Assembly (NCBI GenBank): GCA_903929195.1
Contig: CAIYTT010000005.1
Coordinates: 1-41,630, forward strand
Reading direction: 5' to 3'
DNA from: an uncultured Bacteroidota bacterium
Lineage (GTDB): Bacteria; Bacteroidota; Bacteroidia; Chitinophagales; Chitinophagaceae
DNA length: 41,630 nt
Shown: in pieces, positions 12,980 through 36,443 of the stretch
Numbering within the stretch: position 1 is the first letter of the stretch
How the letters are laid out: each line of letters begins with the position of its first letter
The notes under the pieces: model-generated
What the model saw: only the letters and a program-made list of their open reading frames with translations
Database searches by the model: none
Told to the model about the DNA's origin: nothing
Program-made: the position numbers and the translations under genes

Positions 12980-13102
12980 CAAATTAATGATTTATAATAA
13001 AAAAAGTGTTTTAATAAATTTTACATGGCTTGTAGTAACAGCAAAACAAGTCATCATCGGCAGCTTCTATGAATACCTTCGTAAGAAGGGGTACTATTAT
13101 TA

Positions 13103-13197
13103 GTTCGCGAAGCCCGCGTTGAGGAACATCGCGAACAACTGGAGTGTTTTCCCCAACAAATAGTTTGTTTTTCCGATGACGAGAATAAACCATTTTA
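13103..13197 (-). repeat. dispersed hairpin repeat plus 54-bp module, copy 1
   Basis: Two joined parts. At 13103-13136 an 8-bp perfect stem GTTCGCGA/TCGCGAAC belongs to the same hairpin family as the copies near 23.73, 33.15 and 34.77 kb; the minus strand reads AGTTGTTCGCGATGTTC. At 13144-13197 a 54-bp module matches 23897-23950 in the opposite orientation at 48 of 54 positions. A 60-codon minus-strand frame across this stretch (13011-13193) is judged spurious. A related fragment, GGTGAAAACACCAACAAA, lies at 13289. Confidence 0.6.
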
Positions 13198-31815: not shown

Positions 31816-32385
31816 ATGACAAAAAAACACAACTTATATTTTCTATTATTTATATTCTTATTTCAGATTTTGCATATCGAACTTTATGCACAAACAAATG
31901 CAGATGAATTAAAGTGGAAAGCAGATTTAAAGCTTAAATGGACTGATTTTAAAGCTTTGCCGGATAAATCATCTCCACACGCAGCAACTACCTTTTCAAA
32001 ATTAAACTATAGTTATACTTCAGACGAGAACGGAAAACAGACTATTAAAATAAATTGCTGCTTTATAAAAAGTAAATCGTGGAAAAAGAAAGAGGTAGTA
32101 AATGCATATATACTAACACACGAACAATTACATTTTGATATTACAGAGCTGTATGCAAGAAAAACAAGACAAGCAATGGCAAAATACTTAAAAGAAAATG
32201 CAAATTCAGAAAATGCTGTTGCTGAGATTAAACAAATTTTCAGCACCTTATTTGCAGAAAAAGTAAACTTTGATACTCAATATGACCTTGAAACCAACCA
32301 CTCTCGCAACAAAGAAAAACAAGAGGAATGGCAAATAAAAGTAAAAGATATGATGAAAGAATTGGTTGAATTTGCATCTAAGTAA
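31816..32385 (+). CDS. DUF922-like zincin protease, secreted
   Basis: A 189-residue exported protein (signal peptide ending LYAQ). The core has DLKLKWTDFKALPD near residue 40, typical of the DUF922 family, and an HEXXH zinc motif at His102-Glu103-His106 in THEQLHFDITELYAR. DUF922 members are proposed Zn-dependent proteases with an unknown substrate. The C-terminal half is a Lys/Glu-rich helix. The promoter lies against a MITE-like element. Confidence 0.8.
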   Translation: MTKKHNLYFLLFIFLFQILHIELYAQTNADELKWKADLKLKWTDFKALPDKSSPHAATTFSKLNYSYTSDENGKQTIKINCCFIKSKSWKKKEVVNAYILTHEQLHFDITELYARKTRQAMAKYLKENANSENAVAEIKQIFSTLFAEKVNFDTQYDLETNHSRNKEKQEEWQIKVKDMMKELVEFASK

Positions 32386-32470
32386 GATTTAGGACGTGCT
32401 AAATAAGTATAAACTCGCTGTTTTATTATACCATACTTTTGCGTCTTTCACTTCTTGTTTCGTCTCCTGT

Positions 32471-32545
32471 CTGGTCTTAGCGTCTGCTTATACCAAAAAT
32501 GTGTAAATTTCTGCTTGCGTATAATACTCTCATTGCTACTTCCTC
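32471..32545 (+). repeat. repeat A, copy 1
   Basis: GGTCTTAGCGTCTGCTTA, then a shared AAAATGTGTAAAT.TCTGCTTGC stretch and CTACTTCCTC, match 34866-34931 in the same orientation with a few substitutions and length differences. The first part can fold with an AGC/GCT stem. Together with repeat B it brackets the protease cassette. Confidence 0.6.
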
Positions 32546-32785
32546 CCCAATGTTATTTTTTTTACCATAAATCCTTTTTTAAAATAAAAATTTGTATAAA
32601 CCCAAATTTTGCAGTAGCTTCGTAAAACGCTGTAATCATTTGATTATCAATTACTTGTGTATTGAATTTTTTACTACAAAGCAGTGTAGATTTTATCAAA
32701 AATGCCATTGATAATCAATCAGTTAAGTCAATTATGTGGTTTCAACTGCAAAATCATGGGTTAAACTACTTCGTAAACTCTACTT

Positions 32786-33126
32786 TTAATATTTTTGCCC
32801 TGTTTCAGGAATGATTGTATAGCAATAACAACACCAACTAAACAGGAGTATATTACCACTATTTTTATCAATCATTATATCAACAAATGGGCAGTTCTGA
32901 TTTTGCCACTCTGTTATTTCGATTTTTTCAATTTGCCATACTTTATTTCCAAATATATCAAGAGCAAAGACGTTTTAATTAAATATTGTTTTTAGGGGTG
33001 GTGATAGTATTATGTATACCATATTCCGATATACCATTTTTTTGCAATATCATGTGGAAATACATGTGATTTCCCGTTAGGAAGTATAATACAGTTACCG
33101 ATTACTTTTATTTCGTGTTCATTCAT
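32786..33126 (-). pseudogene. possible decayed gene (two broken minus-strand frames)
   Basis: On the minus strand an ATG at 33126 opens 38 codons (MNEHEIKVIGNCIILPNGK...KKWYIGIWYT, stop at 33010). About 35 nt later a second frame (32786-32974) reads 62 codons (NVFALDIFGNKVWQIEKIE...). Both have protein-like composition and could be one frameshifted gene. A 66-codon frame on the other strand (32795-32995) is equally open, so coding is uncertain. The rest of 32386-33568 holds repeat A, repeat B, a terminator and the protease promoter. Confidence 0.22.
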
Positions 33127-33144
33127 AGATATTATTGTCCCCAG

Positions 33145-33226
33145 TTGTTCGGGATGTTCTGTAGGGCATCCCGAACTCCAAATATAAGTCCATCTCCGAC
33201 GACATTCACCTTGACAAAGCTAAATC
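33145..33226 (+). repeat. 82-bp direct repeat B, left copy
   Basis: Matches 34767-34848 at 80 of 82 positions. It opens with a hairpin: a 10-bp stem GTTCGGGATG (33147-33156)/CATCCCGAAC (33167-33176), extended by T.G, T.G and C-G pairs to a TGTA loop. The two differences from the right copy both lie in the loop, leaving the stem intact. Confidence 0.9.
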
Positions 33227-33380
33227 AAGAAATTGAATTTTCACCCTGTTTAAATCTGTCATTCTGAACCGACCTGCCTTTTTCGGTCATTTTTGTAACC
33301 ATATCTACATCATGCTGAAAATGGCTTAAGCACGCAAAGTAATTTATTTTTTAATTCGATTTGATTGTTTATTCAGTATA

Positions 33381-33417
33381 AAAAATGAAAGCTGCTCCTG
33401 TAGCGGCTTTCATTTTT
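33381..33417. terminator. strong hairpin terminator upstream of the protease gene
   Basis: A 16-bp stem (33381-33396 with 33402-33417; AAAAATGAAAGC arms extended by four more pairs, one of them T.G) closes a CCTGT loop, with an A-tract before and a T-tract at the end. It insulates the protease promoter from transcription from the left, although no intact gene lies directly upstream. Confidence 0.75.
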
Positions 33418-33518
33418 GTGAACGGGACTGGCTATTCTCGAACATTTTCATTGATGATTTGATGAAATTGACGGAAAATTTTCAACGTTTATCTGCTTAT
33501 TAGGCTTTAAATAAATTA

Positions 33519-33549
33519 TTGTACATGCTTATTTTTTAACGTAATTTTG
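33519..33549 (+). promoter_or_regulatory. protease cassette promoter (TTG-N20-TAATTTTG)
   Basis: TTG at 33519-33521 and TAATTTTG at 33542-33549 have a 20-bp spacer, close to consensus, 19 bp before the protease ATG. The island therefore has its own native-type promoter. Confidence 0.72.
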
Positions 33550-33568
33550 TAGCGAAAAGTTATCATTA

Positions 33569-34528
33569 ATGAAATTGACAAAAGCCTATGATATTAAAAG
33601 CAAATTAACGGAGGAATTGCTACGTAATTCAGGTGTAATAAGAAAATCATACTCTATTATTGAGAATTTCTCTTATTCAAATTTTGTTGGAGACCCCTTG
33701 TCAAGCATCAATGGAATTGGGTTGGGTTTTAATAACCATCGTGAATATTTTATTAAGGTCTATACTGAATACGACATAAGGTTTAATAAGGAATACATTG
33801 CGGATGTTTTTGGAGTAACCACAAATGATATTATTGTTTCTAATGTTGGAGTTATTAAGCCATTAGCACTAACTACAAGCAGAATTAGACCTGCTTACCC
33901 CGGGCTGTCAATCGGACATTTCAAAGTTACTGCCGGAACTTTTGGTTGTGTGGTGCAAGATGATGAGGGGGATTTTTACATTTTAAGTAACAATCACGTT
34001 TTAGCAAACTGCAACAATTGTAATATTGGAGATGAGATACTGCAACCCGGTAATAATGACGGAGGTACTTTACCAAGCGACCACATTGCCAATTTATTTG
34101 ATTTTATTCCACTTGATTTTAATGGTATTAATACAATAGATGCTGCAATTGCTCAGCCAATTGATATTACACAAATTCAAGAACAATTACCTTTAATTGG
34201 TAGAATAAAAGGTGTTAGTAATCCGAGAATTGGTATGAAAGTTGCCAAATTTGGCAGAACTACAGGTTACACAACAGGTATTGTAACAGCAAGAGGCGTT
34301 GACATAAAAGTAAACTTTGGAAGAAATCAATTGGACTTTGAAGACCAGTTTGAAATTAATAGCAACAATGGTAAACCGTTTTCTGAAGGAGGTGATTCGG
34401 GTTCTGTTATTATTGATTTTGATACCAAGCAAGCTGTTGGACTACTCTTTGCTGGAGCTACAGGTAGTAGCACATTTGCAAACCCAATTACGACAGTATT
34501 AAATAATTTTGATTTAAAAATAGCTTAA
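33569..34528 (+). CDS. trypsin-like serine protease (Nal1-like)
   Basis: A 319-residue protein without a signal peptide, so probably cytosolic. Chymotrypsin-fold triad: His143 (LSNNHVLAN), Asp191 (NTIDAAIA) and Ser277 (EGGDSGSVII). The Gly-Asp-Ser-Gly context and RTTGYTTGIV strand fit the Nal1-like trypsin family. Residues 1-110 form a separate N-terminal domain (NGIGLGFNNHREYFIKVYT...IIVSNVGVI) that resembles the 69-residue protein encoded next, which suggests a shared module. The gene lies between two 82-bp direct repeats, has its own promoter and is followed after 9 bp by the small gene. Substrate and role unknown; a conflict or processing role is speculation. Confidence 0.82.
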   Translation: MKLTKAYDIKSKLTEELLRNSGVIRKSYSIIENFSYSNFVGDPLSSINGIGLGFNNHREYFIKVYTEYDIRFNKEYIADVFGVTTNDIIVSNVGVIKPLALTTSRIRPAYPGLSIGHFKVTAGTFGCVVQDDEGDFYILSNNHVLANCNNCNIGDEILQPGNNDGGTLPSDHIANLFDFIPLDFNGINTIDAAIAQPIDITQIQEQLPLIGRIKGVSNPRIGMKVAKFGRTTGYTTGIVTARGVDIKVNFGRNQLDFEDQFEINSNNGKPFSEGGDSGSVIIDFDTKQAVGLLFAGATGSSTFANPITTVLNNFDLKIA

Positions 34529-34537
34529 ATTTATATT

Positions 34538-34747
34538 ATGGATATTTTAGCAGCTAAGAAATCTCTTTACGAAAGGCTTAAATCATTTGGGGAAGTGATG
34601 GGTGCCGGAATTAAAGAAAAGAACGGAACAGAATACATTGTAATATTCCTTTCTAATGCTACCCAATCTATAATAGAAAGAATTCCAAAGGAATATCAAG
34701 GCAACAAGGTTGAAACTGAAATAAAAGGGGAAATTGTAACTCAGTAA
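34538..34747 (+). CDS. small protease-associated protein
   Basis: This 69-residue protein starts with a Lys-rich amphipathic helix (MDILAAKKSLYERLKSFGE) and then a compact alpha/beta unit: VMGAGIKEKNGTEYIVIFL, then RIPKEYQGNKVETEIKGEIV. The spacing of GxGI, NxxEY and V....G.I parallels residues 48-97 of the upstream protease, so it may be a free copy of the protease N-terminal domain, acting as inhibitor, chaperone or adaptor. It begins 9 bp after the protease stop and is surely co-transcribed. No family recognised. Confidence 0.68.
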   Translation: MDILAAKKSLYERLKSFGEVMGAGIKEKNGTEYIVIFLSNATQSIIERIPKEYQGNKVETEIKGEIVTQ

Positions 34748-34766
34748 ATAAACATATTTTGACCCA

Positions 34767-34848
34767 TTGTTCGGGATGTTCCGCAGGGCATCCCGAACTC
34801 CAAATATAAGTCCATCTCCGACGACATTCACCTTGACAAAGCTAAATC
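34767..34848 (+). repeat. 82-bp direct repeat B, right copy
   Basis: Same orientation as the copy at 33145-33226, with 80 of 82 matches. The hairpin stem (34769-34778/34789-34798) is unchanged and the tetraloop reads CGCA instead of TGTA. It starts 20 bp after the small gene's stop. Confidence 0.9.
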
Positions 34849-34865
34849 TGCAATTCTGCCCCCTT

Positions 34866-34931
34866 TTGGTCTTAGCGTCTGCTTAGACCCAAAATGTGTA
34901 AATGTCTGCTTGCAAATAAAACTACTTCCTC
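34866..34931 (+). repeat. repeat A, copy 2
   Basis: Second copy of the 32471-32545 repeat, 17 bp after repeat B. GGTCTTAGCGTCTGCTTAGACC is a near-palindrome (one T-T mismatch). Its right end overlaps the last codons of the glycosyltransferase remnant. Confidence 0.6.
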
Positions 34932-35095
34932 TTAGACTTCTCCCACATTACACTTTGTTTTTTTAAGAAATACCTACGGATACCTGCAATAAGGGCATAG
35001 TTCATCATTGCAAAAATAATAGGGTATAAAAAAATAAATAATAAAATTATTTTAACAATATATCCGTTTAAGTTTATATTTAACCATACAAAACC
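34922..35095 (-). pseudogene. C-terminal remnant of a family 2 glycosyltransferase
   Basis: The minus strand reads 57 codons before TAG at 34922-34924. It holds a hydrophobic helix (KIILLFIFLYPIIFAMMNYA) followed by LIAGIRRYFLKKQSVMWEKS, the usual basic C-terminus of membrane-associated Bacteroidetes family 2 glycosyltransferases. An in-frame TAG at 35096-35098 and absence of the catalytic domain show that only the 3' end survives. The HEAT-repeat gene begins immediately beyond, so the rest was deleted or replaced. The rest of the 34748-35148 gap holds repeats A and B. Confidence 0.6.
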
Positions 35096-35148
35096 CTAAG
35101 CATTGAACAACGAAAAAGACAAAAATATCCTTTGCTTTTTCTCTTAAA

Positions 35149-35910
35149 CTAACAAAATTTTGTTTTTTCAATAATACTTATTGCCTCTGCTTGGGTATAA
35201 AATGAAAAATTGCTGTACCTATCATGTACATCTATAATTTCTACGATTGCGTCTTTTACCAATTGTTGGTTTTCCCATGTGTTTATTTCTGCTAATACTG
35301 TTTCTAAACATCCTTTTTTATAGGCTATTTGCCCTAGTACATGTACTAATGTCCATCTAACACGTTTTGTTTTATCAAATTGCAATTCTTTTAGCAATGG
35401 TAAAATATCTTGCGGGTGTGTTCTACCTCTTAATTCAATACCATGACACACCTCTCTTCTTATTTCTTTGTCGGTATGATGCAAATATTGTTTTGCCCAT
35501 TGCAACATTGGCTCCGGGTTTTTCTCTCCTATCTTTTTTATAGAACCTATTACTGCATTTCTAACAGAATGGTGGTTGTCAAATAGTCCGGTATCAAAAA
35601 AATGTTTTACAATTTCAAAATCTGTTTTACCAATCTCTCCGGCAGCATTTATAGTTGTTTGTCTTATTTTCGGCTCCTCATTTATTAAAAGCTTTTGCAA
35701 TACAGCAATACAATTATTTTGTAAATACAAACATCTATTATATATTTTTCCTATAGCTAAGTAAGCTGTTTTTCTAATATAAGTATCCTCATCGGCAAAA
35801 TAGAGAAGTATATAATTTAGTAAATCTGCATTTAAATTATCGGTTATATTATTTGTAATTTCTATTACAAGACTGTTTCTATCTTCTTTAGGTAAATCAT
35901 AAAATGCCAT
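35149..35910 (-). CDS. HEAT-repeat protein (AlkD-like superhelix)
   Basis: A 253-residue all-helical protein made of about six HEAT-like repeats, for example EDTYIRKTAYLAIGKIY, EPKIRQTTINAAGEIG, HHSVRNAVIGSIKKIG, DKEIRREVCHGIELRG and TKRVRWTLVHVLGQIA. The WAKQYL...RREVCHGIELR segment recalls AlkD-type DNA glycosylases, but no catalytic residue could be assigned. It is more safely a scaffold protein. It starts 2 bp after the GNAT gene's stop, so the pair is one operon. Confidence 0.75.
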   Translation of the reverse strand: MAFYDLPKEDRNSLVIEITNNITDNLNADLLNYILLYFADEDTYIRKTAYLAIGKIYNRCLYLQNNCIAVLQKLLINEEPKIRQTTINAAGEIGKTDFEIVKHFFDTGLFDNHHSVRNAVIGSIKKIGEKNPEPMLQWAKQYLHHTDKEIRREVCHGIELRGRTHPQDILPLLKELQFDKTKRVRWTLVHVLGQIAYKKGCLETVLAEINTWENQQLVKDAIVEIIDVHDRYSNFSFYTQAEAISIIEKTKFC

Positions 35911-35912
35911 AT

Positions 35913-36443
35913 TTAGATTGCAATATTTTTTTTCATTAATAAATCTGTTTGCTCATCATTACCAAATAAAAACACATGCGACCCGAATATTTCGAAACCT
36001 AAGTGAAAATAAAATTTAAGAGCATTTGCATTATGTTCCCATACCCCAAGCCATAAGGTATTACAACCGGTTTCAATTGCATATTTTTCGCAATATTTTA
36101 TAAAAGCAGCACCTATCTTTTTGCCTTTATATTCTTTCAATACATATATCCTTTCCAACTCTATAGATATTGTTTCAAAAAGTTCTATAGGTTCGTAGCC
36201 TTTTCTAAGTTTTATATACCCTGCAATACTACCATTATAATATGCAAAAAAGAAGCTATTATTACTATCTTCTAATTCATATTGTAGTTTAGAAGACTGC
36301 ATATTATCTGCTAAATATTTTTCAAGATTTTCTTTAGTATTTACATGTGCATAGCTATCACAAAAAGTAGCAATACTTAATTCTGTAAGTAATTCAACTT
36401 CTGTAATATCTACTTTTCGTATAGTAATTAAATCTGTTTTCAT
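35913..36443 (-). CDS. GNAT-family N-acetyltransferase
   Basis: A 176-residue single-domain acetyltransferase. The acetyl-CoA pyrophosphate loop is VLKEYKGKKIGAAFIKY (motif A), preceded by the LERI strand and followed by WLGVWEHNANALKFYFHLGFE (motif B), ending in VFLFGNDEQTDLLM. This resembles the PaiA/spermidine-acetyltransferase-like group. It is the first gene of a two-gene operon with the HEAT-repeat protein. Acceptor substrate unknown. Confidence 0.88.
   Translation of the reverse strand: MKTDLITIRKVDITEVELLTELSIATFCDSYAHVNTKENLEKYLADNMQSSKLQYELEDSNNSFFFAYYNGSIAGYIKLRKGYEPIELFETISIELERIYVLKEYKGKKIGAAFIKYCEKYAIETGCNTLWLGVWEHNANALKFYFHLGFEIFGSHVFLFGNDEQTDLLMKKNIAI

Follow-up and report, generated by a model that had tools for sequence, protein, structure and literature searches.

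Protease and partner genes between two copies of a dispersed hairpin element in an uncultured Bacteroidota bacterium

Results

Genes and features at the locus

The window, a stretch of 41,630 bases from an uncultured Bacteroidota bacterium, carries two direct repeats of 86 bp (33141-33226 and 34763-34848), which are identical in register at 82 of 86 positions with four mismatches, share a longest exact run of 64 bp and hold the only repeated 24-mers of the window. Each repeat opens with a hairpin (GTTCGGGATG/CATCCCGAAC). The segment between them encodes a serine protease and a small protein, hereafter the partner, whose ORF starts 9 nt past the protease ORF. An initial annotation had described near-identical direct repeats of 82 bp, each starting with a hairpin, around a trypsin-like protease and a 69-residue partner; all of these features are borne out, the repeats being slightly longer. 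The genome that holds the window (G000) was compared with three congeners (G001, G002 and G003), of which G002 is about 90% identical. The features of the locus are as follows.

31816-32385, plus strand: DUF922 gene, the conserved left flank, of full length in both G000 and G002
32389-35153, no strand: variable island without a colinear counterpart in G002, its flanks (92% and 89%) lying on different contigs there
32472-32528, plus strand: outer direct repeat of 57 bp around the whole segment, 89% identical to 34867-34923
32597-32765, plus strand: third dispersed repeat, present at five other sites of G000 (75-89%)
33141-33226, plus strand: repeat copy 1, a solo arm of a dispersed hairpin element, GTTC..GAACTCC subtype
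33226-33499, plus strand: second dispersed sequence, beginning at the end of repeat copy 1, with a 75% copy in G002 (C99) and partial copies in G000 (C214 and C179)
33569-34528, plus strand: NAL1-like serine protease of the trypsin type, 319 aa, whose N-terminal domain is built helix-strand-strand-helix-strand and whose H143, D191 and S277 are conserved
34538-34747, plus strand: 69-aa partner, a free-standing homologue of the protease N-terminal domain
34763-34848, plus strand: repeat copy 2, a solo arm of the same subtype, 82/86 identical to copy 1
34867-35033, minus strand: 3'-end fragment and downstream spacer of a glycosyltransferase-like gene, with the full-length gene in G000 (C142) and a matching stretch in G002 (C48)
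35149-35910, minus strand: HEAT-repeat gene, conserved right flank

The protease and partner genes have a GC content of 34.1% against 33.4% for the window, which gives no compositional signal. The strong terminator reported earlier corresponds to a strong stem-loop at 33381-33417 (-20.6 kcal/mol, z -5.84), which sits inside the dispersed sequence 33226-33499 and is not peculiar to the cassette; a consensus scan found one terminator-like site against 1.1 expected. The consensus promoter reported with it did not hold up, as the consensus scan returned four sigma-70-like sites against 7.4 expected, with none directly upstream of 33569, and the TANNTTTG box at 33542 is a motif of chance frequency (78 in the window against 75 expected). 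A search of Rfam with 32000-36000 and with five element loci gave no relevant match, only one sub-threshold microRNA match each.

The protease and its partner form a recurring pair

The protease matches the Pfam family Nal1_C above the cut-off and Trypsin_2 below it, and NAL1_N is present in 13 of 20 aligned protease sequences. H143, D191 and S277 are invariant in all 20, the window's included, and from these motifs are read as the putative catalytic triad. Structural comparison of the protease model (pLDDT 83.5) returned rice NAL1 (E 4e-13) and, from 1e-10, proteases of the Streptomyces and alpha-lytic type, including the Streptomyces fradiae protease and alpha-lytic protease. NAL1 (NARROW LEAF 1), the plant member of this protease family, has had its structures solved and has been studied in cereals. 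The window protein shares Nal1_C with NAL1-type proteases; in contrast to NAL1-type and known bacterial proteases, it combines a bacterial origin, a length of 319 aa and no evident signal peptide with a free-standing relative of its N-terminal domain as neighbour.

The protease is absent from the three congeners examined, and the 58 nearest other genomes yielded a single distant match (G008). Among 394 other genomes of the phylum, 24 have a protease match. A search of a genome-contig collection with the protease gave zero relatives, whereas plasmid records gave 13 matches and phage records distant proteases only, in three records. Neither protein matched any family of the PADLOC defence models at E <=1, and the two NCBIfam matches of the bracketed proteins lie far below the cut-offs. 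In one genome of the sample (G226, contig C7, locus L109), two NAL1-like proteases of 375 and 370 aa stand in tandem, and a small partner was not seen there.

The partner lies directly downstream of the protease in 13 of the 24 phylum genomes with a protease match, where it overlaps the protease stop by 4 nt in ten and follows after 12, 54 and 102 nt in the other three. By manual reading, three of the remaining 11 loci are truncated there by the end of a contig (L092, L102 and L105) and eight are without the partner, one of which (L094) is perhaps frameshifted. Within the phylum sample the pair spans five families. A Rubrobacter plasmid likewise carries the protease followed by a distant homologue of the partner, which a plasmid search with the partner alone as query did not return, giving no match at all. 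In two Rhizobium plasmid protease loci that were read, the partner was not seen. The protease and its partner are a recurring pair with a patchy distribution, and we take it to be a laterally acquired two-gene unit.

In hhalign, the partner profile aligns with protease residues 2-100 at a probability of 98.4 and an E of 7.9e-15, which makes the partner a homologue of the protease N-terminal domain, and both models run through a helix, two strands, a helix and a strand in that order. The partner falls into no Pfam family (the best match among 15 member sequences has an E of 0.076), its best sequence-profile match has an E of 1.5, and Foldseek gave no PDB chain at E <=0.001. Alignments of the partner model reached Z 6.1 with NAL1, over a range extending beyond the N-terminal part of NAL1, Z 5.2 with the alpha-lytic pro region (2pro) and Z 5.3 with the prodomain-like 4hlb, scores that are not above those of unrelated KH domains and are matched by cation-transporter domains. 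By manual reading, at least eight of 14 aligned partner homologues start with a lipoprotein-like signal, and the window copy is without one.

The pro region of alpha-lytic protease is known to bind its enzyme in trans, helping it to fold or inhibiting it. By analogy, binding to the protease in trans, in one or other of these two roles, is the most likely function of the partner, although it is encoded by a separate gene and the adjoining protease keeps its own copy of the domain; this regulatory role is deduced from homology and fold only. The initial annotation had suspected a small, possibly undescribed, protease-regulator system. Such a pair does exist, though it recurs in five families and on the Rubrobacter plasmid and is thus not peculiar to this cassette. 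Such a recurring pair of a protease and a free N-terminal-domain relative would be a ready model for trans control of a trypsin-fold enzyme.

The repeats belong to a dispersed hairpin element family

A family search with 201 bases around copy 1, in which the best 40 of 76 candidates in G000 and up to 40 in each other genome were scored, returned at least 36 matches in G000 (the query and the other window copy included), at least 35 in G002, three in G003 and zero in G001; three genomes of other genera gave zero matches. The initial annotation had regarded repeats abundant throughout the genome, with no link to gene gain, as speaking against its cassette, and the first half of this, abundance, is what the at least 36 matches in the own genome show. 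The core CATTYAC..TTGACAAAGCTAAAT was found in a single assembly, CAIWXG01 (uncultured Bacteroidetes bacterium, 12 stretches), in a scan of a genome-contig collection from which the own genome may be absent. CAIWXG01 was taken as G002. Zero matches to the core motif were obtained among viral contigs.

Iterated profile searches over fetched loci yielded 23 full elements in each of G000 and G002, along with 32 solo ones in G000 and 44 in G002. Full elements, 178-258 bp long and mostly near 200 or 253, consist of a strong arm and an inverted weaker arm with a terminal hairpin on each, and both window copies are solo arms, without the second end of the element, and have GTTC..GAAC stems. Terminal inverted repeats are present in 46 full elements from the fetched loci of the two genomes, and 31 of the 44 full elements with a strong-arm score >50 have GTT in the first nine and AAC in the last nine bases. 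The hairpins are conserved: in an alignment of 20 hand-chosen arms, 34 cells are changed on both sides of the stem, against 13.8 in shuffled and 0-10 in slid alignments. No excess over shuffles is seen in the number of base pairs altered on both sides (6 against 5.6) or of pair types (10 against 9.5), and alifold yielded a structure from these 20 sequences and none from 86. Target-site duplications of 3-8 bp at 44 full elements are not above the level of re-paired flanks.

Among the 86 strong arms of the two genomes, the window copies are mutual best matches (95.5% identical), and the next relative of either is at 81%. The same element stands at orthologous places in G000 and G002 in at least four cases, and several elements in both genomes lie at contig ends. 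The element is lineage-restricted, non-coding and dispersed through this genome and its close relative. Probably, the elements are non-autonomous and MITE- or REP-like in build. The titles and abstract openings retrieved in a literature search contain nothing describing the repeat family or a free partner, which is no proof of absence. On the minus strand of the two window copies (33215-33222 and 34837-34844), the most conserved part of the element, TAGCTTTG, fits TAnnTTTG, which is the Bacteroidetes promoter box, a motif no commoner in the window than chance predicts. A weak and probably old arm of the same element lies elsewhere in the window, at 13069-13141 on the minus strand.

Elements cluster and bracket diverse small genes

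The 38 strong copies in G000 show nine neighbour gaps <2.5 kb against 0.85 expected, all nine between like-oriented copies; when all copies are counted there are 20 such gaps, 17 of them like-oriented, with clustering inflated because weak copies were sought only in fetched loci. For both genomes together, 27 of 42 neighbours (p=0.09) and 13 of 18 strong neighbours (p=0.10) are like-oriented, so that G002 alone has no orientation preference. Mean identity is 87% for like-oriented neighbours (19 pairs, non-adjacent pairs of the same cluster included), 73% for oppositely oriented ones (seven pairs) and 79% for all pairs. One further pair (L026) is mutual best, with 100% identity over the arm and 93% over 204 bp, as is one pair at L028, and in several other neighbour pairs the copies rank 2 to 79 and are not sisters.

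Elements of the family also bracket further cargo, often one gene or a small operon: HicA with a HicB-like gene, GNAT with TfoX_N, PDDEXK_2, GIY-YIG and DUF6794, these families coming from ten scanned proteins, three of which had none. Genes and elements are mixed in relative orientation (about 11 opposite and five like of 16 by manual count), the window being in the minority. In one such locus of G000 (L015:664-1788, contig C21), the HicA toxin gene and the HicB-like gene lie between like-oriented elements at 121-202 and 1976-2057.

The bracketed segment lies in a variable island

The window is colinear with G002 up to 32388 (92%) and again from 35154 (89%), so that synteny ends 753 bp before repeat 1 and resumes 306 bp after repeat 2. 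In G002, a 314-aa ORF follows the DUF922 gene, and ORFs other than those of the window lie beside the HEAT gene. The 90% relative of the 314-aa ORF in G000 is the PDDEXK_2 gene (L141:5065-6268, contig C98), which is flanked by two elements of like orientation, the second represented by a partial copy of 48 bases. The reappearance of a bracketed gene of G000 beside the left-flank orthologue in G002 is suggestive only, and PDDEXK_2 is possibly repetitive on its own account, as Pfam names the family a nuclease family transposase. An empty site with one repeat and without the cassette was not found, the window flanks being not even adjacent in G002. Decayed genes had been proposed on both sides of the segment. 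On the right this agrees with the glycosyltransferase-like fragment at 34867-35033, but on the left the DUF922 gene is full length and the spacer consists partly of dispersed repeats.

Element sites are associated with gene-order change

Gene order around the elements was compared by means of two 100-base tags in the nearest ORFs of each site, which were searched in G002 (the best 40 of 197 and the best 40 of 140 candidates being scored). Both flanks are adjacent in G002 at 0 of 16 element sites compared with 8 of 16 element-free control sites (Fisher p=0.0024), and at 0 of 14 compared with 8 of 15 (p=0.0022) when three cases running into a G002 contig end (element sites L020 and L027, control L012) are left out. 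The element sites were 16 hand-chosen from 24, omitting both window sites, both at L018, both at L028, one at L015 and L024; the controls were 16 hand-chosen from 35 intergenic sites >=2 kb from any element, with tag distances unmatched to those of the element sites. At the element sites, one flank was found in 12 cases, one weak flank in one (L013), both flanks on different contigs in one (L026) and none in two (both at L017), with the number of missing flanks inflated by nearest ORFs of 100-130 aa, some of which may be spurious. The controls comprise eight with adjacent flanks, five with one flank, two with both flanks non-adjacent and one with none. Of the omitted loci, the window and L028 had flanks on different G002 contigs in earlier searches with longer stretches, and L018 matched G002 at its elements only, bar one short match.

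Moreover, four comparisons (L015:13694, L019:5341, L019:8874 and L025:5019) show 85-95% similarity that extends along one flank and across the element, then breaks off <=1 bp from an element end. Similarity stops 51 bp inside the element at L028:7687, 37-97 bp short of the element at L014, L026, L028:5338, L141 and L144:4289, and >=144 bp from it in further comparisons. Among the breakpoint matches listed (up to six alignments per element, >78% identity, >150 bp of one flank, within the fetched part of G002), none crosses an element so as to take in both flanks. The element family is associated with gene-order change. Such breakpoints would arise if new DNA were joined to element ends or close to them, and contig errors at repeats could also give them.

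Discussion

The reading we prefer, held tentatively and at just under an even chance, is that the segment between the repeats is accessory DNA joined near a dispersed hairpin element and carrying the laterally acquired protease-partner unit. Pieces of accessory DNA of about 0.3-2 kb would be joined where an element already resides, or close to it, recombination of that chromosomal element with one carried on incoming or circularised DNA being the most likely route. Single genes or small operons would then come to lie between like-oriented, sometimes sister, element copies, and the window segment, having moved as a unit, would be one such bracketed case. Weighing against this reading are the lack of an empty site, the position of the window breaks away from the repeats, the missing target-site duplication, the GC content without a compositional signal and the lack of an orientation preference in G002. 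The recombination-prone or movable cassette of the initial annotation stands in outline, in that the island has no colinear counterpart in G002, the protease is missing from three congeners and family sites lose synteny more often than controls; against it, repeat copies abound throughout the genome, the empty site was not found, and neither the families of the two bracketed proteins nor the Y1 transposases sought genome-wide pointed to a recombinase.

The bracket might instead be a coincidence that plays no part in movement, the pair having entered a variable intergenic hot spot in some other way and the element having inserted independently, or been copied locally, on both sides. This is possible, though we lean against it. 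Elements cluster, the island holds at least three other kinds of dispersed repeat, the close relationship of the two window copies fits local copying, and at the window itself synteny is lost some way off from the repeats. Yet four comparisons elsewhere break exactly at element ends, and the flank test (0/16 against 8/16) is not what coincidence would lead one to expect.

A further reading would be a cassette system of a non-integron kind, in which element ends join single-gene cargo (such as a toxin-antitoxin pair, an acetyltransferase and the protease with its free prodomain-like partner) by means of a postulated dedicated recombinase and the N-terminal-domain relative controls the protease in trans; as a whole, this seems unlikely.

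It appears decidedly unlikely that repeat, genes and repeat form a compound non-autonomous transposon, moved as a unit by a trans-acting transposase in the manner of IS26 translocatable units or mobile insertion cassettes. Sister direct repeats around cargo and junctions that in some cases fall exactly at element ends do recall IS26, for which PMC4894685 describes targeting of a resident copy by an incoming one. However, neither bracketed protein belongs to a transposase-like family, the elements are only 86-258 bp long, no 3-8 bp target-site duplication is seen in 44 full elements, and Y1 transposases (one in G000, three in G001, none in G002 and four in G003) do not track element abundance.

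Very unlikely, too, is an assembly artefact in which the repeats misled a short-read assembler into false joins. Both genomes are fragmented (244 contigs in G000, about 490 in G002), several elements lie at contig ends, and the window copies share the 64-bp exact run; but arms differ by about 21% on average and are separable by long k-mers, and at least four times both genomes have the same element at an orthologous site.

Integron cassettes carry attC sites with the core motifs RYYYAAC and GTTRRRY. A reading of the elements as unusual attC sites, suggested by single accessory genes such as HicAB, GNAT and TfoX between hairpin sites and by like-oriented neighbours in G000, was rejected and is extremely improbable, since none of the 86 strong elements has these cores on either strand (shuffled sequences give 0.87), the elements are dispersed over dozens of contigs instead of one array and gene orientation is mixed.

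If element ends truly join accessory genes, as in the preferred reading of accessory DNA joined near a resident element, the lineage would possess a decentralised counterpart of the integron, spread chromosome-wide rather than gathered in one array. In build, the elements resemble MITEs and REP/BIME sequences in being short, dispersed, mostly intergenic and equipped with terminal inverted repeats and covarying hairpins. They differ from both in the absence of a target-site duplication and of a Y1/RAYT link, in the many solo arms and in the synteny breaks that in some cases fall exactly at their ends. A REP/RAYT reading fails on the distribution of the Y1_Tnp matches given above, which come from incomplete assemblies.

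Two minor arrangements of the element were also observed. At one place in G002 (L062:1584-1743, contig C195), two solo arms abut head to tail with zero gap. In G000 (L010:8663-8700, contig C142), a lone hairpin of 38 bases, identical to the start of copy 1, stands beside the full-length glycosyltransferase-like gene of which 34867-35033 repeats the 3' end.
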